A DNA stretch of 64,000 nucleotides from Methylophaga thiooxydans DMS010 (GTDB taxonomy: Bacteria > Pseudomonadota > Gammaproteobacteria > Nitrosococcales > Methylophagaceae): positions 102,659 through 166,658 of the forward strand of contig NZ_GG657897.1 of the NCBI RefSeq assembly GCF_000156355.1. The letters run 5' to 3'. Shown here piece after piece: positions 15,493-30,582 of this stretch; the first letter of the stretch is position 1; every line of letters starts with the position of its first letter. The notes beneath the pieces were generated by a model that was not told the DNA's origin, ran no database searches, and saw nothing but the letters and a program-made list of their open reading frames with translations. The position numbers and the translations under genes are program-made.

Positions 15493-17488
15493 TCAAGCTA
15501 TTGAAGCAGCGCGTCGTAAGCAACGGCTTATGACGCTGTCTTTGCTCGCGGGGTTTGTTGTCATTGTGCTGTTGATAATGACGGTGGTGTTTGCCTCGCG
15601 AGGCACGCGTATTGAAGTATTACCTTCGGAGATCACCTCACAAGCACAGGTTAACACTGAGCGCGGCCTTGCCTTTGTTATTTATGGGCATCTTTACAGT
15701 CTGTCATCAGTTGCAGAAATTAAAGCCCAAGCCCCCGGCTTTATGCCAACAAAACAACAGCTCAGCCATGATGACTTTGGTAAAGTCACAACGATCACGC
15801 TGCAGCCACTGCCGGGCGAATTTGTCCTCACCACCTCGGCAAACACTGATGAAACCAGCTGGCTTATCAATGATGACATTGCCGCTGTCGCCAGTACCTT
15901 TCAAAAAAAGCTGGAAGCGGGTGAGTATGCGATTACTGTGAGCCACCCTTATTATGAAACAGAGTCACGCACCTATTCGGTGGATCGCGGCGAGCGAATT
16001 GAAGAACAGATTGAACTTACCCCTATTGAGCGAACAGTCAGCATCAACAGCACACCAAAAGGCGCGACCGTCAGCATTGATGATACTGAGATGGGCGAAA
16101 CGCCATTCCAGTTATCGCTTGCTGGCGGTAGACATGCCGTTGAAATTACCAAACCCGGTTTTGACCCGACGCTTGACGAAGTAGAAATTAAAAATACGGC
16201 CAACGATATCTCTAGACATTACCAACTGTCGCCCAAAAGCGCGGGCGTTAGTGTCTCCGTATCCCCTGCTGGCGGCACACTGATGCGAAATGGCAGTCCC
16301 GTTGCTATCACAGCTAAAGTCAATATCAACGCTGGTCAGAAAACCACGCTGACTTACACCAAACCCGGCTTTTTCCCACAATCGCACACCTTAACGTTAG
16401 CCGCCGATGAACAACGTGATATTAAGTTTTCTCTGCAAAAAGAGATGGGCGAGGTTGAAATCAATGCAACACCTCAGGCAACGGTAACCATCAATGGTAA
16501 AACAGCGGGGCAAACACCACTCAAGCTATCTCTCCATGCTGTCACACATGAAATTGAAGTGAGCTTGTCCGGGTATCGCAGCGTCACAAAAACCCTCACA
16601 CCATCAGCTAAATCGCCTGCAAAACTATCAATAACACTTCTCCCGGAGAAAAAAGCACGTCTGTTAGAAGCGCCGAGAACCTATCAAACTAAAGCTGGCG
16701 GTGAGATGGTGCTGTTCACGCCCAATGATAAAGTGCTTATGGGTGCCTCGCGTGGTGAACCAGGGCAACGCGCCAATGAGTTTGTTAAAACGGCCACTAT
16801 CACCAAGCCCTTTTATGCTGGCCGCCATGAAGTCACCAATGCGGCCTACTCGCAGTTTAAGCCCGATCATAAAGGCGCGGGTAATGTGCCGGTAACCTCG
16901 GTGTCTTGGTTAGATGCGGTTCAGTATGCAAACTGGTTGAGTCGTGCTGAAAACTTAACGCCCGTTTATGGGGTAACAGGCGGCAAGCTTCACTCAGTAA
17001 ATAATGATGCTGATGGCTATCGTCTACTGAGCGAAGCAGAATGGGAATGGCTGGCTCGCAAGGCGGGACGTCCCACACAGACTCAATTTGTTTGGGGAAG
17101 CAATAAAACCCTGCCGTCTAAAGCAGCCAATATTGCCGATGAATCAAGTAAAGGAAGCGTCACCACATTTGTTCCCCGTTATGATGATGGTAAACCAGGT
17201 ATCGCACCCGTCATGAGTATGCAACGTGAGTTATCAGGTTTGTTTGATATGGGCGGTAACGTCAGTGAATGGACACATGACAGTTACAACCTTAACGTGC
17301 CTCAAAAAGGCGCCGTTTTTGCTCATATGCTGGATACGAAAACAACAGGAATGCGCGTGGTTAAAGGCGCAAACTGGCGCTCTGGTACGCTAACGGAACT
17401 ACGAGCTTCTTTTCGCGAAGGTTTAGTGGAAACCAGAGATGATCTAGGCTTTCGATTAGGCCGTTTTCTCTACGGAGGTAACGAATAA
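15479..17488 (+). CDS. PEGA-repeat inner-membrane protein with C-terminal FGE-sulfatase-like domain
   Basis: 669 residues. One membrane helix (about 18-40) is followed by periplasmic beta-rich repeats of PEGA type at about 180-250, 255-330 and 335-400 (for example SINSTPKGATVSIDDTEMGE and EINATPQATVTINGKTAGQ). Residues about 410-665 form a formylglycine-generating-enzyme (SUMF1/PvdO-like) fold: GRHEVTNAAYSQF, PVTSVSWLDAVQYANWLS, YRLLSEAEWEWLARKAG, GLFDMGGNVSEWTHDSY and DDLGFRLGR. I see no cysteine in the protein, so the copper/cysteine oxidase activity of true FGE is excluded; a binding role is more likely. Same operon as its neighbours. Confidence 0.88.
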   Translation: MNDFNQAIEAARRKQRLMTLSLLAGFVVIVLLIMTVVFASRGTRIEVLPSEITSQAQVNTERGLAFVIYGHLYSLSSVAEIKAQAPGFMPTKQQLSHDDFGKVTTITLQPLPGEFVLTTSANTDETSWLINDDIAAVASTFQKKLEAGEYAITVSHPYYETESRTYSVDRGERIEEQIELTPIERTVSINSTPKGATVSIDDTEMGETPFQLSLAGGRHAVEITKPGFDPTLDEVEIKNTANDISRHYQLSPKSAGVSVSVSPAGGTLMRNGSPVAITAKVNINAGQKTTLTYTKPGFFPQSHTLTLAADEQRDIKFSLQKEMGEVEINATPQATVTINGKTAGQTPLKLSLHAVTHEIEVSLSGYRSVTKTLTPSAKSPAKLSITLLPEKKARLLEAPRTYQTKAGGEMVLFTPNDKVLMGASRGEPGQRANEFVKTATITKPFYAGRHEVTNAAYSQFKPDHKGAGNVPVTSVSWLDAVQYANWLSRAENLTPVYGVTGGKLHSVNNDADGYRLLSEAEWEWLARKAGRPTQTQFVWGSNKTLPSKAANIADESSKGSVTTFVPRYDDGKPGIAPVMSMQRELSGLFDMGGNVSEWTHDSYNLNVPQKGAVFAHMLDTKTTGMRVVKGANWRSGTLTELRASFREGLVETRDDLGFRLGRFLYGGNE

Positions 17489-17625
17489 TGCGCACCAAAA
17501 AATTTGTCTTATCAACGCTTGTTATCGTCGTTTTACTGCTCGCTTCAACGATGCTCCATAACGTCTACGCAGGTAAACCTTTTATCAGTCTTAACGCCCC
17601 TGTTTCCTTTCCTGTGGATATTTAA
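17488..17625 (+). CDS. 45-residue membrane/secreted small protein within the locus
   Basis: Starts at an ATG overlapping the stop of the preceding gene (TAATG at 17486-17490) with GGAGG-like sequence 11 bases upstream, and ends 3 bases before the channel-subunit gene. The product has basic residues, a hydrophobic stretch (FVLSTLVIVVLLLAS) and a short tail KPFISLNAPVSFPVDI. It may be a single-pass microprotein or a signal peptide with a 15-20 residue mature peptide. Tight packing between two operon genes argues that it is real. No family recognised. Confidence 0.65.
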   Translation: MRTKKFVLSTLVIVVLLLASTMLHNVYAGKPFISLNAPVSFPVDI

Positions 17626-17628
17626 ATC

Positions 17629-18417
17629 ATGCAAGACACACTCAAAAACTTTGCGGCATTAGTCGTATCTTTAATCGTCGTGCATATGATTTATATTGGT
17701 TATATCCGGCCAGAAGCCGCACAGCTTATGGAGTATGCCTTAGCCCAAGGCCAGTCATCACCACGGGATATTGTCGTTATTATCAAAGACTATGAGCAGG
17801 AAATTTGTTTCATCTTAATGTTCTGGGGCTGTTTTTTAATAGCTGGCGCTTACCGTGAGATCCTAAAAACCAAATACCTTTACAGTGTTGATCTGATCAA
17901 AGATGTCCGTATTGACACTGATAACCCTGAAACTAATGGCGCCCGCCATGATTTAGATGTGAACGGGATCATCGACCGGCTGGATAAAGAGATCCCCCAG
18001 GATTGCATGAAATCGCCGCTGGTTCACACTTTACGCTCATCATTATGGCGCTACAGCTCAACCGATAACGTGCAAAATCTATCTGATGCCATTGAGAGCA
18101 ATTTAGAGGCCTTAGCCGTGAAGCAAGACTCTGAAAACACAATGATTCGCTATCTGATCTGGGCAATACCTTCGATTGGTTTTATTGGCACTGTACGCGG
18201 TATCGGGCAAGCATTATCTCAAGCCGACGAAGCATTAGCCGGAGATATCTCGGGCATGACCGACAGTCTGGGCGTTGCATTTAACTCAACGCTGGTCGCC
18301 CTGCTTATCAGTATCTTTTTAATGTTTTTATTCCACCAACTGCAACGCTTGCAGGACAGTCAGATAGTCGATACCCAGGACTACTGCGATAAATACCTTT
18401 TACGGCGAATCAGGTAA
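17629..18417 (+). CDS. MotA/TolQ/ExbB-family proton channel subunit
   Basis: 262 residues. Four hydrophobic helices are visible at about 8-26, 58-75, 172-196 and 213-236, with a cytoplasmic loop of roughly 95 residues between helices 2 and 3, the layout of MotA/ExbB-type channel proteins. Helix 3 carries the family signature IPSIGFIGTVRGIGQAL, and helix 4 the conserved small/Thr face GVAFNSTLVALLIS. Such proteins form pentamers around a dimer of single-helix partners (ExbD, TolR, MotB) and use proton or sodium flow to move them. No ExbD/MotB gene adjoins; the next two genes encode vWA proteins whose N-terminal helices could play that part. Confidence 0.92.
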   Translation: MQDTLKNFAALVVSLIVVHMIYIGYIRPEAAQLMEYALAQGQSSPRDIVVIIKDYEQEICFILMFWGCFLIAGAYREILKTKYLYSVDLIKDVRIDTDNPETNGARHDLDVNGIIDRLDKEIPQDCMKSPLVHTLRSSLWRYSSTDNVQNLSDAIESNLEALAVKQDSENTMIRYLIWAIPSIGFIGTVRGIGQALSQADEALAGDISGMTDSLGVAFNSTLVALLISIFLMFLFHQLQRLQDSQIVDTQDYCDKYLLRRIR

Positions 18418-18423
18418 TCAAGT

Positions 18424-19488
18424 TTGGCACATAAAAGTCGACGCGCAGAAGGCTCCAACCTTGCCTTTCTGGACATTATGTCCTGTGGGCTGGGCGCCGT
18501 TATTTTAGTGTTTATGCTGGTCAAACAAAATATTGCCGACGCACCTGCCGAAATAGATAACCTGAAACAAGATATCAGCACACTGGAGCAGGCAAGAGAT
18601 GAGGCTCAGCAAAACCTCGCGGAGCTACGCGCCCGACTCAAAAAAGAAAATGTGGATCTGGCGGCGATGGGCCGCGACTTCAAGCAACAGCGTGATGATC
18701 TCGAAGGTAAAAAAACCGCCCTACAGCAAGCCACTTCTGAGCTTGATGCGTTGAAAGAGACTATTACTCAAATCCCCGCTCCAACGAAAGAGGATTTGGT
18801 TGAAAGCCAACAAATCAATGAAGAAAACTACCTGTTAGGGCTTAAGGTCGAGGGAGACAAAATCGCCATTTTGGTCGATGTCAGCGCATCGATGACCCAT
18901 GAAAAACTGATCGACATTATCAAAACCAAAAGTGGGTCTCAGCAAGGCAAGCTCGCTGCTGAAAAATGGTTACGCACCAGACGGGTCGTCGAATGGCTGT
19001 TAGCCAGATTGCCAAAAACCAGTCAGGTGGTCGTTATTGCCTATAGTGAAGACGCCCGTCAGCTAGGTGGAAAAGGTTGGATGACAGCCAAGGCATCCAA
19101 CACAGTGTCATCTATTATCAATGAATTAAAAACTATCGTGCCTGAAGGCGCGACGAACTTGCAGAAGGGACTCAACGTTGCCAAATCGTTTGCGCCCAGC
19201 AATTATTATGTCATCACCGATGGGCTTCCCACTAAAGGTGAGTCTCGCTATAAAAGCCTGAATCCGTTTTCGAGTTGTGGTTCATTAACTGGCACAGCAA
19301 AAACCATTTCGGGCGAATGTCGTAAGCGCTTATTTAAGCAGACCGTGAGTGAAAGCGGCCCCAAAAGCGCGCAAGTCGATATCGTACTACTGCCTTTAGA
19401 AGGCGACCCTGAAGCTGCCTATGAATACTGGTTATGGGCATCCAGCACACAAGGCTTAGTCATCAGTCCCGCGAGTAACTGGCCATGA
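18424..19488 (+). CDS. von Willebrand factor A protein with motor-partner-like N-terminal helix (copy 1)
   Basis: 354 residues from a TTG start 6 bases after the channel gene. Residues 1-12 are basic. A membrane helix follows at about 13-34 with FLDIMSCGLGAVILVFML, placing Asp17 near its start. Residues 42-120 are a coiled coil. A vWA domain fills the rest with a complete MIDAS: ILVDVSASM (DxSxS), GATNLQKGL (Thr) and VITDGLP (Asp). It is therefore a periplasmic, divalent-cation-dependent binding module on a stalk. The helix shares its layout with ExbD/MotB helices, whose Asp carries protons. Its end overlaps the next gene by 4 bases. Confidence 0.88.
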   Translation: MAHKSRRAEGSNLAFLDIMSCGLGAVILVFMLVKQNIADAPAEIDNLKQDISTLEQARDEAQQNLAELRARLKKENVDLAAMGRDFKQQRDDLEGKKTALQQATSELDALKETITQIPAPTKEDLVESQQINEENYLLGLKVEGDKIAILVDVSASMTHEKLIDIIKTKSGSQQGKLAAEKWLRTRRVVEWLLARLPKTSQVVVIAYSEDARQLGGKGWMTAKASNTVSSIINELKTIVPEGATNLQKGLNVAKSFAPSNYYVITDGLPTKGESRYKSLNPFSSCGSLTGTAKTISGECRKRLFKQTVSESGPKSAQVDIVLLPLEGDPEAAYEYWLWASSTQGLVISPASNWP

Positions 19489-20435
19489 AACGGCGGCATA
19501 AAAGTTTAGATATTTTCAGCCTGTCTTTTCTTGATGTTATCTCCTGCGGCTTTGGTGCCGTTGTGATGTTAATTTTAATTGCTAAAACAGATGTTGAATC
19601 TTCTGTTGCTGGTGCTGATGAGGTGAGTTCGCTGTTAGCATCGTTGATCAGCCTGCAAAACTCAGTGACAGAGATTCAGCAAGAGATGGACGCCGACTTA
19701 AATACCTTGCAACAACTCTCTGGCCAAAAGCAATCAGTGGCACAAGCCTCACAAGCTCTGGAAAACCAGCGCCAGTCACTCGAGCAAAAAAATGCTTCTA
19801 TTGCTGAACGTATCTCAGGGTTAAGCCTTGTCGAGGAAAGACTGAAACAAGCGTCATTGAGCACACCACAAAGGCCCAACAATGAACGTGATATTGAAGT
19901 GGGCGGCATACCTGTCGACAGTGATTATGTTGTTTTCATTGTCGATACCTCGGGCAGTATGAAAAGTATCTGGGGAAGCGTGTCAAAAGAAGTGATCAAT
20001 GTGCTCAATATTCATCCGGAAGTAAAAGGCTTTCAGATCCTGAATGATATGGGTAAGCCCCTTATTTCAGGCTACGATGGAAAATGGATCCCGGATACAG
20101 CAAGCAGACGACAAAGTGTGATTGCGCTATTCAAAAAATGGAATGCCTTATCTAACTCAAGTCCGGTTGAAGGCTTAACTGTGGCACTGCGAAAATACGC
20201 CAAACCAAATATTACGACCTCCATCTACGTATTTGGTGATGAATACTCCGGTGGCGGGTATGATGCTGTGATTAATACCGTGGCAAAAGAAAACCGCACC
20301 CTCAGCTCTGGTCGTAAGCTTGCCAAAATCCACGCCGTTGGCTTTATTTCGGCGGGCACCACGGACAGATTTAGCGTTTTAATGCGAGAAATGACCCAAC
20401 AAAATGACGGTACCTTTATCGCTCTGCCAAGATAG
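19485..20435 (+). CDS. von Willebrand factor A protein with motor-partner-like N-terminal helix (copy 2)
   Basis: 316 residues, overlapping the previous gene by ATGA. The basic start and helix FLDVISCGFGAVVMLILI again place Asp at residue 17, exactly as in copy 1. A coiled coil spans about 45-120. The vWA domain begins with YVVFIVDTSGSM (DxSxS intact). The position of the MIDAS Thr reads SNSSPVEGL (Ser instead), and the third motif is VFGDEYSGGG, so metal binding may differ from copy 1. The two vWA proteins look like ancient paralogues that could form a heterodimer in the centre of the channel. Last gene of the locus. Confidence 0.88.
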   Translation: MKRRHKSLDIFSLSFLDVISCGFGAVVMLILIAKTDVESSVAGADEVSSLLASLISLQNSVTEIQQEMDADLNTLQQLSGQKQSVAQASQALENQRQSLEQKNASIAERISGLSLVEERLKQASLSTPQRPNNERDIEVGGIPVDSDYVVFIVDTSGSMKSIWGSVSKEVINVLNIHPEVKGFQILNDMGKPLISGYDGKWIPDTASRRQSVIALFKKWNALSNSSPVEGLTVALRKYAKPNITTSIYVFGDEYSGGGYDAVINTVAKENRTLSSGRKLAKIHAVGFISAGTTDRFSVLMREMTQQNDGTFIALPR

Positions 20436-20566
20436 TCTTGGCCAGAAAATCATTAAAATCCGTTGTTTTATGCTTATTTAAGACTCTCATGTCGCTAAAT
20501 GCATCGAAAATAACAAAGAAAGAAATTTCATTCGCCTTATTTTTATCACTATCCTTGTGCTAGCAC

Positions 20567-20592
20567 AGGCAAATATATGTACTTCTTTGCCT
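20567..20592. promoter_or_regulatory. Inverted repeat upstream of the ModE-like gene (candidate operator)
   Basis: Perfect 7-base arms AGGCAAA (20567-20573) and TTTGCCT (20586-20592) around a 12-base spacer, 52 bases before the ModE-like gene. It could be bound by that regulator, but it does not match the E. coli ModE site closely enough to claim this. The 208-base gap holds nothing else recognisable. Confidence 0.4.
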
Positions 20593-20643
20593 ATTCAAGG
20601 TAGCGTTTAAAACCTGTTCAACTTCACTACTCAGTGCGACGAT

Positions 20644-20991
20644 ATGGCAAAATCCGTGAGTATAAAAATCAGATTTCATAACAACGATATCGTGGCAATA
20701 GGCCCCGGTAAGGCTGACTTGCTCGAAGCAATTGAAACGCATGGCTCCATTTCAGCGGCAGGACGCGCGATGGGAATGTCCTATAAACGTTCATGGGATC
20801 TGGTCAACGCCATGAACACCAGCTTTAAGCACCCCCTCGTGCACACCAGCAAAGGCGGCAGTCATGGTGGCGGAGCAACAGTGACAACATTCGGTCAGGA
20901 AATTTTGCAGCACTACAGGCAGTTAGAACAAAAAGTACACGCCTCTATCGAAGCAGAAGCAGCTGCCATTACCGCATTACTCGATCGCTAA
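20644..20991 (+). CDS. ModE-type winged-helix DNA-binding protein (no molybdate-binding domain)
   Basis: 115 residues matching the N-terminal DNA-binding half of ModE: a LysR-like HTH in ISAAGRAMGMSYKRSWDLVNAMN, then the wing HTSKGGSHGGGATVTTFG. Full ModE adds two TOBE domains for molybdate or tungstate; here the protein ends after the dimerisation helix, so metal sensing must differ or be absent. Such short forms are common beside Mo/W transport genes. It heads a cluster with a TonB receptor and an oxyanion-binding lipoprotein, which supports a role in Mo/W-linked regulation. Confidence 0.9.
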   Translation: MAKSVSIKIRFHNNDIVAIGPGKADLLEAIETHGSISAAGRAMGMSYKRSWDLVNAMNTSFKHPLVHTSKGGSHGGGATVTTFGQEILQHYRQLEQKVHASIEAEAAAITALLDR

Positions 20992-21007
20992 ATGACAATA
21001 AGCATTT

Positions 21008-21026
21008 GGTAGCATTTACAGCTACC
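21008..21026. repeat. Hairpin between the ModE-like and TiaS-like genes
   Basis: GGTAGC (21008-21013) and GCTACC (21021-21026) with a 7-base loop. It lies inside an outer partial pairing of AGCAT (21001-21005) with ATGCT (21034-21038), 45 bases before the TiaS-like start. Possible operator or mRNA hairpin. Confidence 0.35.
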
Positions 21027-21071
21027 GATATATATGCTGGAATATCACGATTCATTTTATAAAAGTTGCTT

Positions 21072-21812
21072 ATGGGCACTCGCCTCTTTATTGGTATTGA
21101 TGACACAGATAATCTGGATAGCCGAGGCACGGGGTTTCATGCCCGGGCGTTATGCAACAGTATCAACCAACGTCATTTAGGTAATTGTCGTTTTGTCACG
21201 CGTCATCAATTATTGATGAGCCCGCTGGTTCCCTTTACCTCACACAATAGCGCGGCGTGTCTGGTTGTAGAGCAGCCGGGCGACATTGGGCAATTGGAAT
21301 CACTGTGTATCGATTATTTGATAGAAAACAGTGCTGATGGCGCTGATGCAGGACTCTGTCTACTCCCTGAGCAGGTACTGACGGTAAGCCTGATGCAATT
21401 TGGCATCATTTGTAAGCACCGTGTTGTCACTCAAGCGATAGCAACAAGCCTGGCAACACAACATGGGATTCGCTTGCACGGTCTGACAGGAACCAAAGAC
21501 GGGCTGATAGGTGCTCTAGCGGCTGCCACCTTATGCGGTTCAGGAAATGATGGTCGCTTACTCTGGCTGGCGGGAATGCGAGATCACGCTGAGCAAACGC
21601 TATCGCTTAAACAGCTTCAAGAATCTACCGATATTGCTGTTGTGCAAAATCGTGAAGGGCTACCTCTTGTCGATGTTACAACTCAGATCGATATGGGCAC
21701 ATGGCCCCGGGCAATATGGCTAGGTGGCGAGCCTTGTCTAATCGTTGAACCACATGAGGAAAAAGCAGATGTCTGGCAAGTCGCTGCAAAAAGCTATCTC
21801 AAACAGTTCTGA
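21072..21812 (+). CDS. TiaS-like domain protein in the Mo/W cluster
   Basis: About 246 residues opening with RLFIGIDDTDNLDSRGTGF, the signature of the TiaS N-terminal domain. Archaeal TiaS modifies the tRNA-Ile2 wobble cytidine with agmatine. Bacteria use TilS for that, and this protein lacks the OB-fold/zinc C-terminal part, so tRNA modification is unlikely. Later glycine motifs (GLTGTKDGLIGALAAATL) suggest nucleotide or phosphoryl chemistry. Its location between a ModE-type regulator and transport genes implies a Mo/W-related role, which is inference only. A TTG two codons earlier (21066) is an alternative start. Overlaps the next gene by 44 bases. Confidence 0.75.
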   Translation: MGTRLFIGIDDTDNLDSRGTGFHARALCNSINQRHLGNCRFVTRHQLLMSPLVPFTSHNSAACLVVEQPGDIGQLESLCIDYLIENSADGADAGLCLLPEQVLTVSLMQFGIICKHRVVTQAIATSLATQHGIRLHGLTGTKDGLIGALAAATLCGSGNDGRLLWLAGMRDHAEQTLSLKQLQESTDIAVVQNREGLPLVDVTTQIDMGTWPRAIWLGGEPCLIVEPHEEKADVWQVAAKSYLKQF

Positions 21813-22320
21813 ACTTTTTAATTCAAGTCTCAGTAAACATGCGCTGATTGCCTTAGCCGGCGTCATTGCGATGCTCTTACATGAAAGTTTTCGTTATGGG
21901 CTAGACTTGCCGGGGCGGCAAGGTCTGACATTAATGGCCATTCTTGTCTTTGTCCGCTGCGCCTCACCCTACAACTACAGCAGCACATTAGCTGGTGCAG
22001 GTGGGCTTGTCGCCGCCCTCATCTGGCGAGATAACCCAACGGCTGCGGTGATTGTGCTAAGTCAGGGTATTTTCATTGATTTGTTGTACCGTCAATTGTC
22101 GCGCTCCCCAATCACGCTGTGGTTATTACCAGTTGGCGTTGGTTTTATCCATATGATCAAACCCATGTTAAAAGTCGGGTTGATGGTGGTCGCCGGTATT
22201 GAAACTGATTCGTTTCGACATGGTCTAGCCTATCCCTTTATCACCCATTTCCTATTTGGTGGCGTTGGCGCTTTGATTGGCTTTATGGCCTGGCGCAGTC
22301 TGAAAAAACACACACAATAA
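21769..22320 (+). CDS. Multispanning membrane protein of the Mo/W cluster
   Basis: From the ATG at 21769, preceded by GAGGA at good spacing, the protein has 183 residues. A longer frame begins at 21745 but lies deeper in the preceding gene. Five or six hydrophobic helices are evident (KHALIALAGVIAMLL, LTLMAILVFVRC, LAGAGGLVAALIW, LLPVGVGFIHMI, FLFGGVGALIGFMAW). The size and small-residue-rich helices resemble S-components of ECF-type transporters, but I cannot assign one. Transcribed between the TiaS-like and TonB-receptor genes, it could be the inner-membrane step of the uptake route. Confidence 0.7.
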   Translation: MSGKSLQKAISNSSELFNSSLSKHALIALAGVIAMLLHESFRYGLDLPGRQGLTLMAILVFVRCASPYNYSSTLAGAGGLVAALIWRDNPTAAVIVLSQGIFIDLLYRQLSRSPITLWLLPVGVGFIHMIKPMLKVGLMVVAGIETDSFRHGLAYPFITHFLFGGVGALIGFMAWRSLKKHTQ

Positions 22321-22338
22321 ATCATTTTTAAGGTTCTC

Positions 22339-24408
22339 ATGAAGCACTCAAAAAATTCGTTTAAATATCGATATATTTCAAAAAATATATCCAAATACCT
22401 ATTCGCCTTTAGCATTTTCCCTCTGACGCCGGTGTTCGCCAGCGAACAACCGGTTTACGAACTCTCAAATATCGTGGTCAACGCAGAAGCTGAGTCAGGG
22501 ACTGTTTATCAGGTCGATCAAGACGATATTGAATTGATAGGAGCCAGAAGCTTGGAAGATGCATTGCGCCTATCACCCAGCACCAATGTTCGCTATGGTG
22601 GTGATGGCACGCCACGTATGGATATCCGAGGTCTAAGAACCCGGCAGATTAAACTCCTGGTTAACGGCGTACCCTTTAACTCCACCTTTGATGGCCAATT
22701 CGACCCCAGCTTGATTCCTGCCTTCGGCATAGGAAGGGTTGATCTTAATGTCGGCAGTTCCTCAGTGCTTTATGGCGATGGGGGTATGGCTGGCGTTATT
22801 GATATAAAAACACGCGCGATGGGACAAGGGTTTAATGCGACGACTAAAGTTGAGCGTGGCAGTGATGACTTCTGGCTCGCCAATGGCCAAGTTGGCTATG
22901 GCGATGCGGATCAAGACTTCTTCTTTGGCTACGGTGTACGAGATCGCGACGCCTTTTCAGTCTCTAACGATTTTTCCAGCACTCTCACAGCAGATGCTGA
23001 AAATTTTCAAGACAGTAACGATCGTAACAACAGTGATAACCGCCGCGAAAACCTTGTGTTAAGTTATTACCGTCATCTAACGGAGAAGTTAACGGTTGGT
23101 ATCTTCGCCACCTATTTGGAAGGCGAGTACGGCAAACCACCGATCACGCTTGATAACAGCGTAGATGATTTTGCCCAACGTGCACGCTTTGAACGCGTCG
23201 AATCTCAACACGGTTACACCATTCAAGTTGGCGCAGACTACGATTTCACCGATAACTGGATCGGTAAATTATGGTTCTTCGATAACCAATTAGAGGAACG
23301 CACCGCCAGCTACGACACACTATCGCTTAACACGATCAGCTCAAACAACACGTTTCGTCGTACCGAAGAAACACAATTAAGAGGCTTTCACAGCCAACTC
23401 TCTGGTTTATTACCTGAGACTGCGACCCAACTCGCCTTTAGCATTGATCATCGCAACGAAATTTATGATGAGAATGGTATCGAATGCAACATCTCTTCCG
23501 GTGGCGGTGGCGGTGGCGGTGGCGGTGGCGGTGGCGGTGGCGCACCTTGCCCAACCACAGCCTATGATTCAACAATGACTGATGAAGATCTGTCTGTGCA
23601 GTCTTACGCCTTCGAGGTCACTCAGCCATTACCCTTTAATGTCACCGCAACCGTAGGCATAGGTCATCATAAATTAAATATCGATGGTGCCAGTGATGAA
23701 ACAGCAAGCAGCGCACAATTTGCATTAAGCAAAGCACTAACATCGATCACTCGCATTTATGGCAGTGTGGCAAGAAAAGTTGATGCCCCCACCATCAGAC
23801 AACTTTTTGAACAAGATGCAGGTAATCCAGCACTAGGGTTTCAACGCGCTAAGCATTATGAAATAGGCCTCAGAAATCGCTGGCAGCAGGGCAGCTTGGA
23901 TATCGCGGTTTGGCAATCGGATATTGATGACTTTATCGAACGCGATGACACAACAGACTTATTTGAAAATCGTGATGAGCTAAGATTCAAAGGTGTCGAT
24001 ATCTCGGGCAGTTATCAGCTAACGCCGAAGTTCACGGTTAACGCCGGCATCGGTTTCCTGGACGCTGAAGATACATCATCGAATGCGGCATCGAAGCAGT
24101 TGCAGTATCGTCCTACACACAAAGCAACGCTGCAAACGGTGTATACAATGTCACCGCGCTGGCAGTTAAGTGGTGATATCACCCGAGTCGGCTCGCAAAA
24201 TTACTTCAACCGTAATGATGCGTCAGAGCGGCGTAAGCTGGACAGCTTTGAACTGGTCAATACGCGCCTAAAATACACGGTTCCCAATGGGGCAGCCGAT
24301 GTTTATGTCGGCATTGAAAACCTGTTTGATGAGGATTATGAAACCAGTTATGGTTATCCACAAGCTGGCCGGTTTCTCTATACGGGCATGAACATTCGTT
24401 GGCATTAA
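22339..24408 (+). CDS. TonB-dependent outer-membrane receptor
   Basis: 689 residues. The N-terminal signal peptide ends near TPVFAS. The plug domain spans about 45-155 (SLEDALRLSPSTNVRYGGDG, MDIRGLRTRQIKLLVNGVP, SSSVLYGDGGMAGVIDIKT). The beta-barrel extends to a C-terminal aromatic strand RFLYTGMNIRWH, with the receptor motif ENLFDEDYETSYGYPQAGR near the end. A Cys-flanked loop holds fourteen consecutive glycines encoded by a hexanucleotide repeat. The substrate cannot be read from the sequence. The downstream TupA-like lipoprotein and upstream ModE-type protein point to molybdate or tungstate, possibly chelated. The SD region AAGG precedes the ATG. Confidence 0.92.
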   Translation: MKHSKNSFKYRYISKNISKYLFAFSIFPLTPVFASEQPVYELSNIVVNAEAESGTVYQVDQDDIELIGARSLEDALRLSPSTNVRYGGDGTPRMDIRGLRTRQIKLLVNGVPFNSTFDGQFDPSLIPAFGIGRVDLNVGSSSVLYGDGGMAGVIDIKTRAMGQGFNATTKVERGSDDFWLANGQVGYGDADQDFFFGYGVRDRDAFSVSNDFSSTLTADAENFQDSNDRNNSDNRRENLVLSYYRHLTEKLTVGIFATYLEGEYGKPPITLDNSVDDFAQRARFERVESQHGYTIQVGADYDFTDNWIGKLWFFDNQLEERTASYDTLSLNTISSNNTFRRTEETQLRGFHSQLSGLLPETATQLAFSIDHRNEIYDENGIECNISSGGGGGGGGGGGGGGAPCPTTAYDSTMTDEDLSVQSYAFEVTQPLPFNVTATVGIGHHKLNIDGASDETASSAQFALSKALTSITRIYGSVARKVDAPTIRQLFEQDAGNPALGFQRAKHYEIGLRNRWQQGSLDIAVWQSDIDDFIERDDTTDLFENRDELRFKGVDISGSYQLTPKFTVNAGIGFLDAEDTSSNAASKQLQYRPTHKATLQTVYTMSPRWQLSGDITRVGSQNYFNRNDASERRKLDSFELVNTRLKYTVPNGAADVYVGIENLFDEDYETSYGYPQAGRFLYTGMNIRWH
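23500..23541 (+). repeat. (GGTGGC)7 hexanucleotide tract inside the TonB receptor gene
   Basis: Seven uninterrupted copies of GGTGGC encode 14 glycines between two Cys (CNISS before, APC after). The unit is a multiple of three, so slippage would change loop length without breaking the frame. Confidence 0.97.
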
Positions 24409-24428
24409 TGCTCAAAAAAGGAACCATC

Positions 24429-25289
24429 ATGCTCATTACAACTGGACATAATAAATGGGTCAAACTACTCCATCGCTTTTGTCTTCTGCTAATCACGTTC
24501 CACCTGACAGCATGTGCTCAATCGACTCAGATGCCAGCCAGCACTCAGGTTCGGCTTGCCGTCGTCAATACGCCCCAAGACAGCGGCTTATTGACGTATT
24601 TGTTAGCAGAATTTGAAGCACAGACGGGGCATCAGGTCATCGTGGAGAAAAGTGACGATCCCTTTGCCATAGCCTTGGCAGGAAATGCCGATATGATCAT
24701 TTCGCATTATGGCAAAGCCGGTATGGCTGAGTTTGTTGCTGATGGATATGGCTCGTGGCCAAACATGGTGTTCGCAAACCAGGCGGCATTAATTGGCCCA
24801 AAAAATGATCCTGCTCGAGTCGGTGATAGCAGTAGTCTGGCAGAAGCGTTTAGAGCAATTGCCAACAACGGTCAAACACTGATTGCAAACAATAATGGCG
24901 GTATTTCGGCATTGACTGAACTCGTCAGCACAGCGAGTGGACTGTCACTGGATAGCGACTGGTATCGAGATTTAGGCGTTAGCAAAGGACGTGCAATTAA
25001 AGTCGCCGAAAAAGAGCATGCCTATGTTATTTGGGGAGCGATACCCTTCCTCACGTTTCAAGCAAAGCATCACACGGAGATGGCCATACTGTTTAGTGCA
25101 GATCCTTTACTACAAAGGATCATGGCTATCACGCGTCCCAAACCTGAGCACTTCCCCGCCACCAACACGAAAGCGGCAAAAATATTGGAAACCTACCTAC
25201 TTAGCACGGCTACACAAACTAAGATAATGCGCTTTCGTGCAGCAGGGTCTGATCACCAACTTTGGTGGCCCGCAGGCAGACATAATTAA
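24429..25289 (+). CDS. TupA-like tungstate/molybdate-binding lipoprotein
   Basis: Start chosen at 24429 behind AAGGA; longer frames extend into the receptor gene. About 286 residues with a signal sequence and lipobox HLTAC. The mature part follows the PBP-like layout of TupA-type oxyanion binders: DSGLLTYLLAEFEAQTGHQ, AGNADMIISHYGKAGMAEF, then VFANQAALIGPKNDPA and NNNGGISALTELV. TupA proteins bind tungstate with very high affinity for TupBC ABC uptake, but no TupB/TupC genes adjoin. It may deliver substrate to the adjacent membrane protein or to transporters elsewhere. Substrate (W versus Mo) is inferred. Confidence 0.82.
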   Translation: MLITTGHNKWVKLLHRFCLLLITFHLTACAQSTQMPASTQVRLAVVNTPQDSGLLTYLLAEFEAQTGHQVIVEKSDDPFAIALAGNADMIISHYGKAGMAEFVADGYGSWPNMVFANQAALIGPKNDPARVGDSSSLAEAFRAIANNGQTLIANNNGGISALTELVSTASGLSLDSDWYRDLGVSKGRAIKVAEKEHAYVIWGAIPFLTFQAKHHTEMAILFSADPLLQRIMAITRPKPEHFPATNTKAAKILETYLLSTATQTKIMRFRAAGSDHQLWWPAGRHN

Positions 25290-25304
25290 CAGCGTAGAAC
25301 TAAC

Positions 25305-25342
25305 AAAAAGAGCCTCAGCCTGAATCAGGCTGAGGCTCTTTT
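25305..25342 (+). terminator. Rho-independent terminator closing the Mo/W cluster
   Basis: Long perfect stem containing AGAGCCTCAGCCTGA and its complement around a short AATC-like turn, with A run before and T run after. It can act on both strands and may also stop the minus-strand small gene at 25370. Confidence 0.93.
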
Positions 25343-25369
25343 GTGGCGCTATGAAACCCTTAATACGGC

Positions 25370-25540
25370 CTATTTGCCGCGGTTTTTCACACCTTGATTA
25401 CCTGGCAACGTGTTTGAGTCTCTCGGCTCTGGCAGGTTGGGATCATTTTTCTTTTCTTCGTGAGCAATTAATTTTTTAAATACAAAACCAATCACAACGA
25501 GAACAAGAATGGCGATTATGGTGATTGTCGTTTTATCCAT
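25370..25540 (-). CDS. 56-residue single-pass membrane protein
   Basis: Read on the minus strand from an ATG at 25540 with AAGGA about 8 bases upstream. The product begins MDKTTITIIAILVLVVIGF, one membrane helix, then a charged cytoplasmic or periplasmic tail (KKLIAHEEKKNDPNLPEP) ending in NRGK. It is closed by the bidirectional terminator at 25305-25342. No family recognised; good SD, clean topology and its own terminator support a real gene. Confidence 0.6.
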   Translation of the reverse strand: MDKTTITIIAILVLVVIGFVFKKLIAHEEKKNDPNLPEPRDSNTLPGNQGVKNRGK

Positions 25541-25762
25541 TCCGATTTTTCCTTCGATGATGTCAATACAAAAGCGACTAAGCGTAATTTATTAGTGCTT
25601 TTTATAATTTAGCAGAAATCACCAAAAACGCTCAGAAAATTGTCACGCTGTTTTTTTACATGACTGAAAACCAGTGTAATTAACCCACTGTTGTCGCTGG
25701 ATTCAGTTCTTCTTGTGACACCTGTCTTAGCCATTTTTTGATGAATTCAAATAATCTGAGCC

Positions 25763-25795
25763 AAAAAAAAGCCCCGACTGGCGGGGCTTTTTCTG
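25763..25795 (-). terminator. Terminator of pqqA
   Basis: Stem GCCCCG/CGGGGC with a five-base loop and T run on the minus strand (A run on plus), beginning about 15 bases after the pqqA stop. Indicates that pqqA is a single-gene transcript. Confidence 0.9.
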
Positions 25796-25810
25796 GTTTG
25801 GCTAACTGTA

Positions 25811-25882
25811 TTATCTGTTGCAGATATACATTGTTACTTCAAAGCCAAAACGCATGTCTGAGTATTCTGGTTTAGTCCACAT
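25811..25882 (-). CDS. pqqA: PQQ precursor peptide PqqA
   Basis: A 23-residue frame: it starts [16 protein letters not shown], has Glu15 and Tyr19 in the GFEVTMY core, and ends in CNR. Glu and Tyr separated by three residues are the two side chains cross-linked by PqqE to build pyrroloquinoline quinone, and the MW.KP start and GFEVT.Y core are PqqA hallmarks. A GAGGT ribosome binding site precedes it. No pqqB/C/D/E genes adjoin and a terminator follows at once, so it is a separately transcribed copy. PQQ serves periplasmic dehydrogenases such as methanol dehydrogenase. Confidence 0.95.
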
Positions 25883-26061
25883 GATTATTACCTCAATTAA
25901 GTTTGTCTGATGTTACGATTTGAATGTTACGCCTCCATGAAGAAAGGCAATACAGCGAATTACTTGTTAGGGGTCAGGATTTTGCTGAATCACTATTTTT
26001 TGCTTTACCAGCTTAGTGAATTCAGTAAGGATGGCAATCATAGACACTTTGGAGAACGTTC

Positions 26062-26274
26062 ATGAAACCACAAGTCAGTATCGAACAAGTATTATCCGCC
26101 GAGCCACCCTACTTTGTGATTCATAAAGACGAACAGGGCCAACTAGAGACATTAGATAACCATTTTGCCAGCTACCAACAGGCTTTGGACTTTGTCTTAG
26201 AGCAAGGCTGGCAGGTAAAGCGTGAGCAAGCTAACAGCTCACTGCATGTGGAAACACGCTTTTTGAAACCCTGA
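26062..26274 (+). CDS. Small hypothetical protein
   Basis: 70 residues, preceded by GGAGA at good spacing. The sequence looks like a small mixed alpha/beta soluble protein (SIEQVLSAEPPYFVIHKDEQ then a QQALDFVLEQGWQVKRE helix). No signal peptide or membrane segment, and no family recognised. It ends where the convergent LysR gene ends. Confidence 0.65.
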   Translation: MKPQVSIEQVLSAEPPYFVIHKDEQGQLETLDNHFASYQQALDFVLEQGWQVKREQANSSLHVETRFLKP

Positions 26275-27225
26275 TTATTGCTTATCCAATTGCGTAAAGT
26301 AGTGATGAATAGACTTTAAATTCGATTGAATATAATCCAAAAAGGCTTGTGTCACGGGCGTCAAATGTTTGCCTTTAGGGTAAACCAAACACCAACTCCG
26401 GCGAAGTGGAAAGCCTTTTATTTCAGGACTGACTAACACCCCTTGGTGTATTTCTGACAACACGCTGAGCTTCGGTAATACTGCAACACCCAAGCCCGCT
26501 TGCACACCATGTTTAATGGCATCATTCGAGCCTATTTCCATATAAGAACGCAGGTTGAGACGTTGTTGCTGGCAGTGTTGCTCTAATGCCAGGCGGTTAC
26601 CGGAGCCTGACTCTCGCATCAGTAAGTTTTCATCCATAAACTGCTGTGGTGTAACGTGCTTATTTTTGGCAAAAGGATGACTGGCTGGGACAACCGGAAT
26701 CAACTCATTATCCAAAAATGGCAAAGAAGCCAGCGACCGATCATTCGGTACTAATCCCATTACCACCAAATCATCACTATTCTGATTGAGCAGCTCTACC
26801 GCCTCAGCCCGATTGGCAATATTGAGGGTGACATTCACCGTCGGATACAGCGTCGTGAACTCCTTCAACAAATGCGGAATGGCATATTGAGCAGTACTCA
26901 CCGCACTCAACCGCAAATCTCCTGATAGCTGGCCTTGCAGCAAGTGCAGATCACTTTGCAAATGCACAATCTGTTCAAATATCGAACGAATCCGTTCCGC
27001 CACGTTTTCTCCAGCACGCGTACAGTAAAGTCGTCGCCCGACGTATTCAAATAAGGGCTGCCCCAAAGCCTGCTCTAACTTACGGATTTGTGAACTTACT
27101 GCGGGCTGCGTTAAACCCAGTTTTTCTGCTGCTTTACGGTAACCGCGTTCTTGATATACCGCCTCAAAAACCTGCATTTGTCGAAATGACAAACGATTTA
27201 ATAACTGCTGAAGGGACAGGGACAT
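26275..27225 (-). CDS. LysR-family regulator of the pyruvate carboxylase operon (PycR-like)
   Basis: 316 residues. The N-terminal winged HTH spans about 5-65 (FRQMQVFEAVYQERGYRKAA, LTQPAVSSQIRKLEQALG), followed by the LysR effector-binding domain (about 95-300, LRLSAVSTAQYAIPHLL, GVQAGLGVAVLP). It is divergent from pycA across 115 bases, the usual LysR position for controlling the neighbour. A similar LysR gene (PycR) lies beside pycA-pycB in Pseudomonas, so I infer the same target here. The effector is unknown. Confidence 0.88.
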   Translation of the reverse strand: MSLSLQQLLNRLSFRQMQVFEAVYQERGYRKAAEKLGLTQPAVSSQIRKLEQALGQPLFEYVGRRLYCTRAGENVAERIRSIFEQIVHLQSDLHLLQGQLSGDLRLSAVSTAQYAIPHLLKEFTTLYPTVNVTLNIANRAEAVELLNQNSDDLVVMGLVPNDRSLASLPFLDNELIPVVPASHPFAKNKHVTPQQFMDENLLMRESGSGNRLALEQHCQQQRLNLRSYMEIGSNDAIKHGVQAGLGVAVLPKLSVLSEIHQGVLVSPEIKGFPLRRSWCLVYPKGKHLTPVTQAFLDYIQSNLKSIHHYFTQLDKQ

Positions 27226-27246
27226 AGGCTTCCTAATGCATCTAAT

Positions 27247-27262
27247 ATAAGTTAAAACTTAT
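27247..27262. promoter_or_regulatory. Palindrome in the lysR-pycA intergenic region (candidate operator)
   Basis: ATAAGT-TAAA-ACTTAT, a perfect 6+6 palindrome between the divergent genes. Its position suits a LysR-type autoregulatory or recognition site; spacing is one base off the classical T-N11-A rule. Confidence 0.5.
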
Positions 27263-27340
27263 CACTAGTAGAAATTATATCAATTTTTAATTATGTCTCG
27301 TTTTCACTACGCTATTTGCATCTAAACCGGAGGCTGCCCC

Positions 27341-28756
27341 ATGCTGAAAAAAGTGCTCATTGCCAATCGCGGCGAAATCGCAGTTCGCATCGTTAGAGCT
27401 TGTGCCGAAATGGGTATTCGTTCCGTTGCTATCTACACTGAGCCAGACCGCTATGCTTTGCATGTAAAACGTGCCGATGAATCATTCTCCCTTGGTGATG
27501 ACCCCTTAGCCGGCTATTTAGATCCGCTACGTATTGTGAATTTAGCTGTCGAAACGGGCTGTGATGCCATCCATCCCGGTTATGGTTTTCTCTCTGAAAA
27601 TGCAGAGTTCGCTCGCCTGTGTGAAAAAAATAACATTACTTTTATCGGTCCCAAATCTACCGTCATCGATAAAATGGGGGATAAAACGGCTGCGCGCGAC
27701 AGTATGCGTGAAGCTGACGTTCCCATCACACCCGGCTCTGATGGCAACCTCGCCGATCTAGATGAAGCGCTGAGTCTGGCTGAGGAAGTGGGTTATCCGG
27801 TCATGATCAAAGCCACATCGGGTGGCGGTGGTCGTGGTATTCGTCGTTGTGACAGTGCAGAAGAGTTACGTCAGCAGTACCCTCGCGTCATTTCAGAAGC
27901 AACCAAAGCATTCGGAAGTGCTGAAGTGTTTCTGGAAAAATGTATCGTCAACCCACGGCATATTGAAGTGCAGATCTTGGCGGATACACACGGTAATGTG
28001 ATTCATCTTTATGAACGAGACTGCTCTATTCAGCGCCGTAACCAGAAACTCATTGAAATTGCGCCGAGCCCACAACTTACCCCAGAACAACGTGATTATG
28101 TCGGCGATTTAGCGGTACGCGCAGCTCAAGCTGTGGGTTATGAAAACGCCGGTACGGTCGAGTTTCTGCTAACCGGTAATGAAGTGTATTTCATGGAAAT
28201 GAATACCCGAGTTCAGGTTGAGCACACCATTACCGAACAAATCACCGGCGTCGATATTGTCCGCGAACAAATACGCATCGCTGCGGGGGAAAAGCTAAGC
28301 TACCGCCAGCAAGATATTCAATATCGAGGATTTGCTTTGCAATTTCGGATCAATGCCGAAGATCCCAAAAACGATTTTTTGCCCAGTTTTGGCCGCATCA
28401 CCCACTATTATGCGCCCGGTGGACCCGGCGTTCGTGTTGATACCGCGATTTATACGGGCTATGAAATACCACCATATTTTGACTCCATGTGCTTAAAACT
28501 GGTGGTCTGGGCATTGGACTGGGAAGATGCCATCAACCGTGGCCAACGCGCTTTGGATGATATGCGTTTACACGGAATCAAAACCACTGCCACTTATTAT
28601 CAACAAATCCTTAATCATCCTGATTTTCGTAGCGGCCATTTCGATACCGGTTTTGTGCCTGCTCACCCTGAACTACTGAATTATTCCGATAAACGACGTC
28701 CCAGCGCGGTTGCGCTGGCTTTAGCCACCGCCATTGCAGCCCATACCGGCTGGTAA
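27341..28756 (+). CDS. pycA: Pyruvate carboxylase subunit A (biotin carboxylase)
   Basis: 471-residue biotin carboxylase: ATP-dependent carboxylation of biotin on the partner subunit. Motifs are KKVLIANRGEIAVRIVRACA, the ATP-binding KATSGGGGRGIRRC, EKCIVNPRHIEVQ, the DRDCSIQRRNQK-type segment ERDCSIQRRNQKLIE and EMNTRVQVEHTITE with the catalytic Arg and Glu. Coupling to an adjacent carboxyltransferase/biotin subunit and a PycR-like regulator makes it the two-subunit pyruvate carboxylase rather than AccC of fatty acid synthesis. The pair supplies oxaloacetate from pyruvate. Confidence 0.94.
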   Translation: MLKKVLIANRGEIAVRIVRACAEMGIRSVAIYTEPDRYALHVKRADESFSLGDDPLAGYLDPLRIVNLAVETGCDAIHPGYGFLSENAEFARLCEKNNITFIGPKSTVIDKMGDKTAARDSMREADVPITPGSDGNLADLDEALSLAEEVGYPVMIKATSGGGGRGIRRCDSAEELRQQYPRVISEATKAFGSAEVFLEKCIVNPRHIEVQILADTHGNVIHLYERDCSIQRRNQKLIEIAPSPQLTPEQRDYVGDLAVRAAQAVGYENAGTVEFLLTGNEVYFMEMNTRVQVEHTITEQITGVDIVREQIRIAAGEKLSYRQQDIQYRGFALQFRINAEDPKNDFLPSFGRITHYYAPGGPGVRVDTAIYTGYEIPPYFDSMCLKLVVWALDWEDAINRGQRALDDMRLHGIKTTATYYQQILNHPDFRSGHFDTGFVPAHPELLNYSDKRRPSAVALALATAIAAHTGW

Positions 28757-28782
28757 GCCGCTCTCAAGCTGGAGAAAGATGT

Positions 28783-30582
28783 ATGAAAAAAATTGAAGTT
28801 ACTGATGTCATTCTGCGTGATGCCCATCAATCCCTTATTGCCACACGCATGCGAACAGAGGACATGCTACCCATCTGCGACAAGCTGGATAAAGTCGGCT
28901 ATTGGTCATTAGAAGCATGGGGCGGTGCGACCTTTGATGCCTGCGTTAGATTCCTCAAAGAAGATCCGTGGGAAAGACTACGCCAGTTAAAACAAGCATT
29001 GCCCAATACCCGACTGCAAATGTTGCTACGCGGACAAAACCTGCTTGGTTATCGTCATTATGCTGATGATGTGGTGACCGCTTTTGTTGAGCGTGCCGCT
29101 GACAATGGTATTGATGTATTTCGTATTTTCGATGCCTTAAATGATCTACGTAACCTCGAAACAGCAATGACCGCGGTGAAAAAAGCGGGTAAACATGCTC
29201 AAGGCACGATCAGCTATACCACCAGCCCGGTGCATACCGCTGATTTGTTTGTAAAACAGGCTAAAGATCTGCAAAACATGGGGGCAGACTCCATTGCCAT
29301 CAAAGATATGGCGGGTTTATTAGCCCCCTATCCGACCTACGATCTGGTCAAAGCCATTAAAGCAGAAGTTGATCTTCCGCTGGTCATTCACAGTCATGCA
29401 ACGTCAGGGCTTGCCGCACAGTGTCAGCTAAAAGCCATTGAAGCCGGTGCCGATCGTATTGATACTGCTATTTCCTCTTTTGCTTGGGGTACGAGCCATC
29501 CGGCAACCGAATCGCAAGTAGCGGCATTACGAAATACCGAGTTTGATACTGGACTCGACTTAAACCTGTTATCCGACATTGCCGACTATTTCCGCGACGT
29601 TCGTAAAAAATACCATCAATATGAAAGTGAATTTACCCGTGAGGATGTCTCGGTTCAGATCAATCAGGTGCCGGGCGGTATGATGTCGAACCTAGCCAAT
29701 CAGCTGAAAGAACAAAATGCCCTGGATCGCATTCGTGATGTCTTTGCTGAAATTCCTCGCGTTCGTGAAGACTTAGGTTTTCCACCGTTAGTGACGCCAA
29801 CATCACAAATTGTCGGCACACAAGCGGTTTATAACGTGCTGGCAGGTGAACGCTACAAAACCATTACCAATGAAGTAAAACGTTATTTGCAGGGCGGTTA
29901 TGGGCATCCACCCGCAGCCGTCAACGCAGCGTTGCAAAAGAAAGCCGTCGGCAATGAAGACATTATCGAGTCGCGTCCTGCCGATGCATTGCGACCTGAG
30001 CTCGATAAACTGCGTGCAGACATCGGTGAACTCGCCACATCAGAAGAAGATGTCCTGACATTTGCCATGTTCCCTGACTTGGGCCGCGACTTTTTACAGC
30101 AACGTGCCAACGGCACATTAAAACCTGAGCCATTATTAGCTGCCACAGAAAATGGCAATAATCAAAGCAAAGACCCCATTGCGACAGAGTTTAAAGTCGA
30201 CGTACATGGTGAAAGTTACGATATCGCCATAACCGGTGTCGGTGATGTCGGTGGCGGTAAACGCAAGTTCTATATCTCCATTGATGGTATGCCTGAAGAA
30301 GTCACCTTTGAGGCCTTAAATGAATATATCAGTGAAGGTGTGAGTGGCGGCCGCAAGAAAGCATCGGCACCCGGCGATGTCACCGCGCCGTTACCCGGCA
30401 ATGTCGTTGAAGTATTGGTTGCAGAGGGCGATCAGGTCGAAGCGGGGCAAGCTTTGCTGGTTATGGAAGCAATGAAGATGGAAACAGAGTTACTAGCAAA
30501 TATTGCGGGCACAGTGAATAAGCTGCACGTGAGCAAAGGTGATCGCGTGACTCCCGGTGAGACATTGATTGAAATTGCTTAA
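28783..30582 (+). CDS. pycB: Pyruvate carboxylase subunit B (carboxyltransferase and biotin carrier)
   Basis: 599 residues. The N-terminal carboxyltransferase TIM barrel begins VTDVILRDAHQSLIATRMRT and includes WGGATFDACVRFL, RGQNLLGYRHY and the HSHATSG metal-site His pair. A PYC_OADA helical segment follows, and the C-terminal biotinyl domain carries the biotinylated Lys in VMEAMKMETE. Oxaloacetate decarboxylase alpha has the same layout, but no OadB/OadG membrane subunits are present and the biotin carboxylase gene lies 26 bases upstream, so pyruvate carboxylase is the better call. Confidence 0.93.
   Translation: MKKIEVTDVILRDAHQSLIATRMRTEDMLPICDKLDKVGYWSLEAWGGATFDACVRFLKEDPWERLRQLKQALPNTRLQMLLRGQNLLGYRHYADDVVTAFVERAADNGIDVFRIFDALNDLRNLETAMTAVKKAGKHAQGTISYTTSPVHTADLFVKQAKDLQNMGADSIAIKDMAGLLAPYPTYDLVKAIKAEVDLPLVIHSHATSGLAAQCQLKAIEAGADRIDTAISSFAWGTSHPATESQVAALRNTEFDTGLDLNLLSDIADYFRDVRKKYHQYESEFTREDVSVQINQVPGGMMSNLANQLKEQNALDRIRDVFAEIPRVREDLGFPPLVTPTSQIVGTQAVYNVLAGERYKTITNEVKRYLQGGYGHPPAAVNAALQKKAVGNEDIIESRPADALRPELDKLRADIGELATSEEDVLTFAMFPDLGRDFLQQRANGTLKPEPLLAATENGNNQSKDPIATEFKVDVHGESYDIAITGVGDVGGGKRKFYISIDGMPEEVTFEALNEYISEGVSGGRKKASAPGDVTAPLPGNVVEVLVAEGDQVEAGQALLVMEAMKMETELLANIAGTVNKLHVSKGDRVTPGETLIEIA

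Follow-up and report, generated by a model that had tools for sequence, protein, structure and literature searches.

What is transported, and by what route, by a gene cassette of Methylophaga thiooxydans DMS010 that combines a ModE-type regulator and a TonB-dependent receptor with relatives of TiaS and TupA? The cassette lies in a 64,000-nucleotide stretch of DNA (contig NZ_GG657897.1 of assembly GCF_000156355.1, positions 102,659 to 166,658), which we call the window and whose numbering we use throughout. An earlier note, made from the letters alone, had listed, in one orientation and closed by a strong terminator, genes for a short ModE-type regulator, a protein resembling TiaS (TiaSL), a small membrane protein (MP), a TonB receptor, and a lipoprotein resembling TupA (TupAL), and had proposed that they bring a molybdenum or tungsten (Mo/W) oxyanion, or a chelated form of one, from the outer membrane to the periplasm. 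All five genes are indeed present on the plus strand in that order, followed by a terminator-like hairpin of 17 pairs. The link of the cassette to Mo/W is well supported. Our best reading, which we put at close to an even chance, is a ModE-controlled route for a W- or Mo-bearing compound that would lead from the receptor through a solitary S component of the energy-coupling factor (ECF) type to TiaSL. The features of the cassette are as follows.

20644..20991, plus strand: short ModE-type regulator, 115 amino acids (aa), helix-turn-helix (HTH) part only; TIGR00637, 91.4 bits.
21026..21049, plus strand: palindrome of 24 bp in the modE-TiaSL interval, with the geometry of a ModE operator.
21072..21812, plus strand: TiaSL, TiaS-like protein; TCKD-type N-terminal domain followed by ~90 residues without a match.
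21769..22320, plus strand: MP, six-helix membrane protein with a predicted ECF S-component fold; 44-nt overlap with TiaSL.
22339..24408, plus strand: TonB-dependent outer-membrane receptor; PF07715 and PF00593 above cut-off.
24399..25289, plus strand: TupAL, TupA-like lipoprotein; TupA homologue without the oxyanion-site residues.
25306..25342, no strand assigned: terminator-like hairpin, 17 pairs.

Start codons were refined to ATG 21072 for TiaSL and to ATG 21769, within the 3' end of TiaSL, for MP.

Of 63 genomes of the order, 10 carry TiaSL, full length in eight (M. thiooxydans DMS010 included) and as fragments only in two. The search for conserved neighborhoods that the earlier note had suggested was positive: the order modE-TiaSL-MP-receptor is kept in the seven other intact clusters, one of which leaves its contig inside the receptor gene, and conservation in seven other genomes of the order is more than chance. 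In the same seven clusters TupAL is intact in two, reduced to a C-terminal fragment in two, and absent in three, and we regard it as accessory because it is so often missing. The cassette is rare at a wider scale, TiaSL being present in 4 of 299 genomes sampled from the phylum, M. thiooxydans DMS010 among them. Outside the order, a contig scan yielded 308 TiaSL relatives, and we retained the best 80; the seven near relatives are included among these 80 loci, so that the counts are not independent. Of the 80, 72 gave a called TiaSL frame, the frame filter having dropped L041, L048, L056, L057, L059, L066, L089, and L103.

Across these 72 loci, MP is present in 61 and lies directly 3' of TiaSL in 60, and in all 60 of the latter the two called frames overlap. 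Where a recognizable M-x-G start allowed the overlap to be measured (22 loci), it comes to 44 nt (7 loci), 50 nt (14 loci), or 95 nt (1 locus). A TonB-receptor-like gene lies within 4.5 kb in 52 of the 72 loci, a ModE-type gene in 26, a TupA-family gene in 11, and a secreted protein of a Bacteroidota type in 27; the single member of this last group that was scanned had no Pfam match. TiaSL and MP are thus the conserved core of the cassette. The presence and absence of the parts can be compared in two loci: in L017 a receptor-MP-TiaSL block sits between a major facilitator superfamily (MFS)-type gene and modE, while in L190, from another Methylophaga, the same MFS-type gene is followed by modE ~42 bp on and the block is missing. 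The block is missing as a whole, and therefore TiaSL, MP, and the receptor come and go together, and modE can stand alone.

Several other occurrences of TiaSL deserve mention. Two genomes of a sister family hold broken remnants of it (L023 10236-12148 and L024 9303-9657); L023 also holds a receptor remnant, and its remnants sit among genes resembling a RuBisCO region. On a haloarchaeal plasmid (L026 6744-8675) and in a member of the Anaerolineae (L064 8504-10732), TiaSL adjoins a binding protein of the metal-chelate type of ATP-binding cassette (ABC) transporter; a permease and an ATPase are also present in L026, and MP was called in neither locus. A single contig titled as a Klebsiella pneumoniae metagenome-assembled genome (L038), a title that may be wrong, carries TiaSL, MP, receptor, ModE, and TupAL together. 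The search for viral relatives found none, and three plasmid records were found. The reading of L039:14656-15390 and L070:1849-2334 as PF00174-like was rejected, as neither had a Pfam match; it holds for L078 alone.

The cassette carries a ModE-type operator, a candidate regulatory site upstream of TiaSL. The regulator itself matched TIGR00637 (2.9e-26) slightly below the cut-off of 98.5 bits and Pfam HTH_1 just below its cut-off, and its N-terminal HTH domain is present; members of the same short ModE subfamily also adjoin other Mo/W genes in Methylophaga. By reading the upstream DNA, we found the 24-bp palindrome before TiaSL in all eight intact clusters. The pattern CGNTRTAT-N8-ATAYNNCG was derived from those eight clusters, so its presence in 8 of 8 is by construction. 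The published ModE consensus is ATCGCTATATANNNNNNTATATAACGAT, the core of which has the identical 24-bp geometry (PMC2700814). In the window the pattern matched once (21026-21049), compared with no match in 100 shuffles. The 63 genomes of the order contain 20 distinct sites: eight before TiaSL, two at modA (G010 and G052), three at tupA (G038, G041, and G048; in G048 the site separates tupA from the receptor gene that follows), and seven elsewhere, apparently mostly within coding genes. With both strands counted in the same way, the true pattern gave 27 matches and the reversed pattern 13.

For a looser core with 10 bases fixed, 10 of 60 distant TiaSL upstream regions reached a score of 9 or 10, versus 5 of 544 upstream regions of other genes in the loci (p ~9e-8), a comparison to be read with caution in that the distant sequences had already been inspected before the test was written and several of the 10 positive loci are related Bacteroidota. 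When arm complementarity was the sole criterion for a palindrome, TiaSL upstream regions did not stand apart from controls.

The genes around TiaSL point in the same direction. In the Chloroflexi loci L070 and L101, the TiaSL-MP pair adjoins tupABC; TiaSL adjoins a WtpA above the TIGR03730 cut-off in L078 and the tungsten aldehyde oxidoreductase (AOR) in L083 and L100, and it lies near moaC, moaD, and moaE in L022. AOR was found in 23 of 34 TiaSL-bearing genomes tested, which were taken from the 80 loci; by group, with assignments made from record titles (L038, labeled Klebsiella, may be misnamed), it is present in 11 of 11 Bacteroidota, 5 of 5 Chloroflexi, 7 of 15 Pseudomonadota, and 0 of 3 Cyanobacteria. 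The 7 of 15 Pseudomonadota compare with 8 of the 299 phylum-sampled genomes (p ~6e-7, or 6e-6 without L038), the base rate having been taken for the Pseudomonadota sample only. As to which of the two metals the ligand bears, AOR and TupABC hint at tungsten in several phyla. Thus, of what the earlier note had proposed, the connection to Mo/W is upheld by operator geometry, by neighboring tup, wtp, and moa genes, and by co-occurrence with AOR, and an outer-membrane receptor as part of the route is likewise supported; its idea of a tungstate- or molybdate-binding lipoprotein, taken up below, was not supported, and the operator at 21026-21049 and the core role of TiaSL-MP had escaped it.

The receptor scored above the Pfam cut-offs for both plug (PF07715, 71.9 bits) and barrel (PF00593, 99.9 bits). 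A GGTGGC repeat at 23499-23542 (7.3 copies, 100% identity) encodes a glycine run between two cysteines, which probably sits in a surface loop. The best NCBIfam match of the receptor is the vitamin B12 receptor model BtuB (TIGR01779, 142.7 bits), and BtuM, a solitary B12 S component, is among the structural matches of MP (Z 8.6), both of which would fit import of a corrinoid or another non-Mo/W nutrient with the ModE link incidental. We consider that explanation very improbable: the receptor score is far under the BtuB cut-off of 599.7 bits, the ModE-type operator and the tup, wtp, moa, and AOR context speak for Mo/W, and searches for cobalamin riboswitches, as for molybdenum cofactor (Moco) riboswitches, found none in window positions 15000-30000 or in 14 loci.

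For MP, sequence searches gave no convincing relative of known structure. An AlphaFold2 model built from 62 sequences has a mean predicted local distance difference test score (pLDDT) of 91.9. Foldseek placed an ECF S component at the top of its PDB matches (E 0.025, probability 1.00), and VIA-align also ranked S components first (Z 13.9, root mean square deviation [rmsd] 3.7 over 162 residues), its best six rows running from Z 13.9 to 11.5 at rmsd 3.4-3.8. The fold predicted for MP is therefore that of an ECF S component. EcfT (PF02361) was found in none of the 63 genomes of the order, with 10 of 14 positive in the control, so that in these genomes MP can be no more than a solitary S component. 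Among 34 distant TiaSL-bearing genomes, EcfT occurs in eight, all Cyanobacteria or Chloroflexi, and in none of 26 Pseudomonadota and Bacteroidota. Motor-free transport has been published for the S components BtuM and BioY (PMC11109136).

TiaSL matched TIGR03280 (1.5e-10) and TiaS (1e-4) in profile searches, with profile matches to structures 3u02, 3au7, 3amt, and 4rvz. The TIGR03280 match covers residues 6-158 at 40.7 bits, compared with a family cut-off of 255.8, and Pfam TiaS_TCKD gave 13.9 bits only. The predicted model (pLDDT 95.4) matched the TiaS kinase domain over ~157 residues (5xob, E 5.6e-11, rmsd 2.4). At 246 aa, TiaSL did not match the remaining domains of the 420-aa TiaS, the alignment stopping at about residue 157, and the last ~90 residues matched nothing in the sequence and structure searches made. 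TiaSL thus retains, of TiaS, the kinase-type domain alone. The core of its GIDDTD motif and the Thr aligned to Thr18 of Archaeoglobus TiaS, which we take to be the autophosphorylated residue, are invariant in 57 aligned TiaSL sequences.

TupAL has the lipobox LTAC (by eye) and is homologous to TupA by sequence (3muq, 1.3e-26; 3lr1, 4.2e-22), at 39.7 bits for NF041772 versus a cut-off of 400. The oxyanion site of TupA is formed by TTTS, Arg118, Thr124, and Asp170; three Arg118 variants lost molybdate binding, and R118E lost binding of both tungstate and molybdate (PMC5517513). In our alignment these positions are altered in all eight TupAL rows, whereas all 12 ordinary TupA rows, that of the TupA of the same genome included, retain the equivalents of Arg118 and Asp170. 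The TupAL of the window reads AVVNTP, AN-NNGGIS, and VIWGAIP where the TupA of the same genome reads STTTST, SRGDDSGTH, and ALADRGT. Most TupAL rows have a W/F-G-x-x-P motif at the place of the Asp170 stretch, and the His59 position is retained. As judged from sequence, TupAL is a kind separate from ordinary TupA, and since the site residues are changed, tungstate binding of the TupA type is improbable; the earlier note's view of the lipoprotein as a tungstate- or molybdate-binding TupA is not supported. The loss of the oxyanion site, together with the presence of a TonB receptor, suggests a bound form of the ligand, which would then be a complex and not a bare oxyanion.

A number of observations weigh against the route from receptor through MP to TiaSL. 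Elsewhere, at L163, the genome has modABC together with a short modE; at L162, close to moaC and moaE, a PBP-domain ModE is accompanied by TupA and a porin-like gene; and TupB-TupC stand separately at L164. The earlier note's phrase "without TupBC or ModBC" accordingly stands for the cluster and fails for the genome, and free oxyanions have their own route without MP. The TiaSL-MP pair lies beside a complete TupABC in Chloroflexi, and so MP need not be an importer. These facts would suit a scheme in which the receptor and lipoprotein deliver molybdate or tungstate, whether free or chelated, only as far as the periplasm, for entry via the TupBC or ModBC encoded elsewhere, leaving TiaSL-MP with another metal role. 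Ordinary TupA also accompanies the intact cluster, in 8 of 8 genomes of the order versus 37 of 55 others (p 0.056), a co-occurrence that is suggestive only. We nevertheless find periplasmic supply unlikely, as no part of the cassette is more constant than the TiaSL-MP pair and as TupAL, which would have to be the carrier, has lost the oxyanion residues and is frequently missing or degraded.

Further points on the same side concern MP and the regulator. Particulate methane monooxygenase (pMMO), an unrelated membrane protein, scored Z 11.5 (rmsd ~5) against MP, middling Z values being frequent among helical bundles in this comparison. A Pfam scan of the short ModE (115 aa) did not find the molybdate-binding TOBE/MOP domain. 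MP was not called in 11 of the 72 loci, and 20 of the 72 have no nearby receptor. Of 174 unlabeled genes lying 2.6 kb or less from TiaSL, 139 were scanned; no Pfam family recurred in more than three members, and recurrence was no better than in a far set (145 of 239 scanned), so that the conserved unit is the core alone. AOR was not found in the genome of M. thiooxydans DMS010, whose Mo/W enzymes are likely formate dehydrogenases (by eye). The S-component fold, moreover, is also used by sensor receptors, namely, sensor kinases and 5TMR (PMC11109136). If TiaSL-MP were a membrane sensor or a device for W/Mo cofactor maturation, with the receptor merely coregulated, this shared fold, the loci without a receptor, and the positions of TiaSL beside AOR and near moa genes would all be accommodated. 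The receptor, however, lies close 3' of MP in most proteobacterial and Bacteroidota loci, and TiaSL, MP, and the receptor are jointly absent from the syntenic site in L190, which makes the sensor or maturation role distinctly unlikely in our view.

We therefore keep as our best reading the route through receptor, MP, and TiaSL. ModE would control a cassette for acquiring a tungsten- or molybdenum-bearing compound, which the TonB receptor would carry through the outer membrane, with an optional periplasmic helper (TupAL here, other proteins elsewhere). MP, resembling a solitary S component, would, unaided by an ECF motor, carry the compound through the inner membrane, and TiaSL, using ATP, might modify the compound or free the metal and so trap it in the cell. 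The direction of transport, transport by MP as such, and the reaction of TiaSL are what we infer. A more specific form, which we offer tentatively and with considerable doubt, is that organically bound W or Mo, as a metallophore or a piece of pterin cofactor, is imported by the TonB receptor and the solitary S component and is opened or trapped by the TiaS-derived kinase.

If true, the route would represent an ABC-independent class of Mo/W acquisition, would extend Mo/W uptake to bound forms, and would give the TiaS kinase fold a role outside tRNA. It would also assign functions to two unnamed protein families across several phyla and provide a genetic means of studying how aerobic methylotrophs and Bacteroidota use tungsten. 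We found no description of such a cluster in the open-license papers searched, which is weak evidence of novelty.

On either side of the cassette, two features of the window were seen. Immediately 5' (17629-20435) is a row of von Willebrand-type proteins and proteins that by eye are MotA-like, perhaps a separate, unrelated operon. Just past the terminator, a 23-aa frame on the minus strand (25811-25882) resembles PqqA, the precursor peptide of pyrroloquinoline quinone (PQQ).

How does the cassette compare with known systems? Each of the named tungstate and molybdate importers, TupABC, WtpABC, and ModABC, is an ABC transporter that takes up the oxyanion in free form (PMC11980592). The cassette shares with TupABC a homologue of TupA; it differs in having neither TupB nor TupC and in the changed TTTS, Arg118, Thr124, and Asp170 of that homologue (residues from PMC5517513). 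TiaSL has the N-terminal kinase-type domain of TiaS, the archaeal tRNA-Ile2 agmatidine synthetase, but not the rest of that enzyme, and its genes adjoin transporters. It resembles methanogenesis marker protein 11 (TIGR03280) over the matched residues, although TiaSL is bacterial and far under the cut-off of a family that is itself hypothetical.

A second ModE-TonB cluster occurs in other Methylophaga (L186, L187, L188, L192, and L193), with families scanned for L186 only and read by eye in the others. It resembles the cassette in having the short ModE subfamily (none in L188), a TonB receptor, and usually an ordinary TupA (four of the five loci, with a split gene in L192). Its receptor, however, is ~25% identical in pieces to that of the cassette, and in place of TiaSL-MP it has a PhnS-like binding protein and a di-haem oxidoreductase, with a ModA-like protein in four.

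A further parallel is the BtuB-BtuM-BtuR route for B12. BtuM genes adjoin btuR, and metabolic trapping has been proposed for this solitary S component (PMC6072759). There, as in the cassette, a TonB receptor is combined with a motor-free protein of (in MP, predicted) S-component fold and an ATP-using enzyme that may act as a trap. The cassette differs in its ModE-type operator and Mo/W gene context, in the lack of a B12 riboswitch in the regions searched, and in having a TiaS-like kinase domain where the B12 route has an adenosyltransferase.

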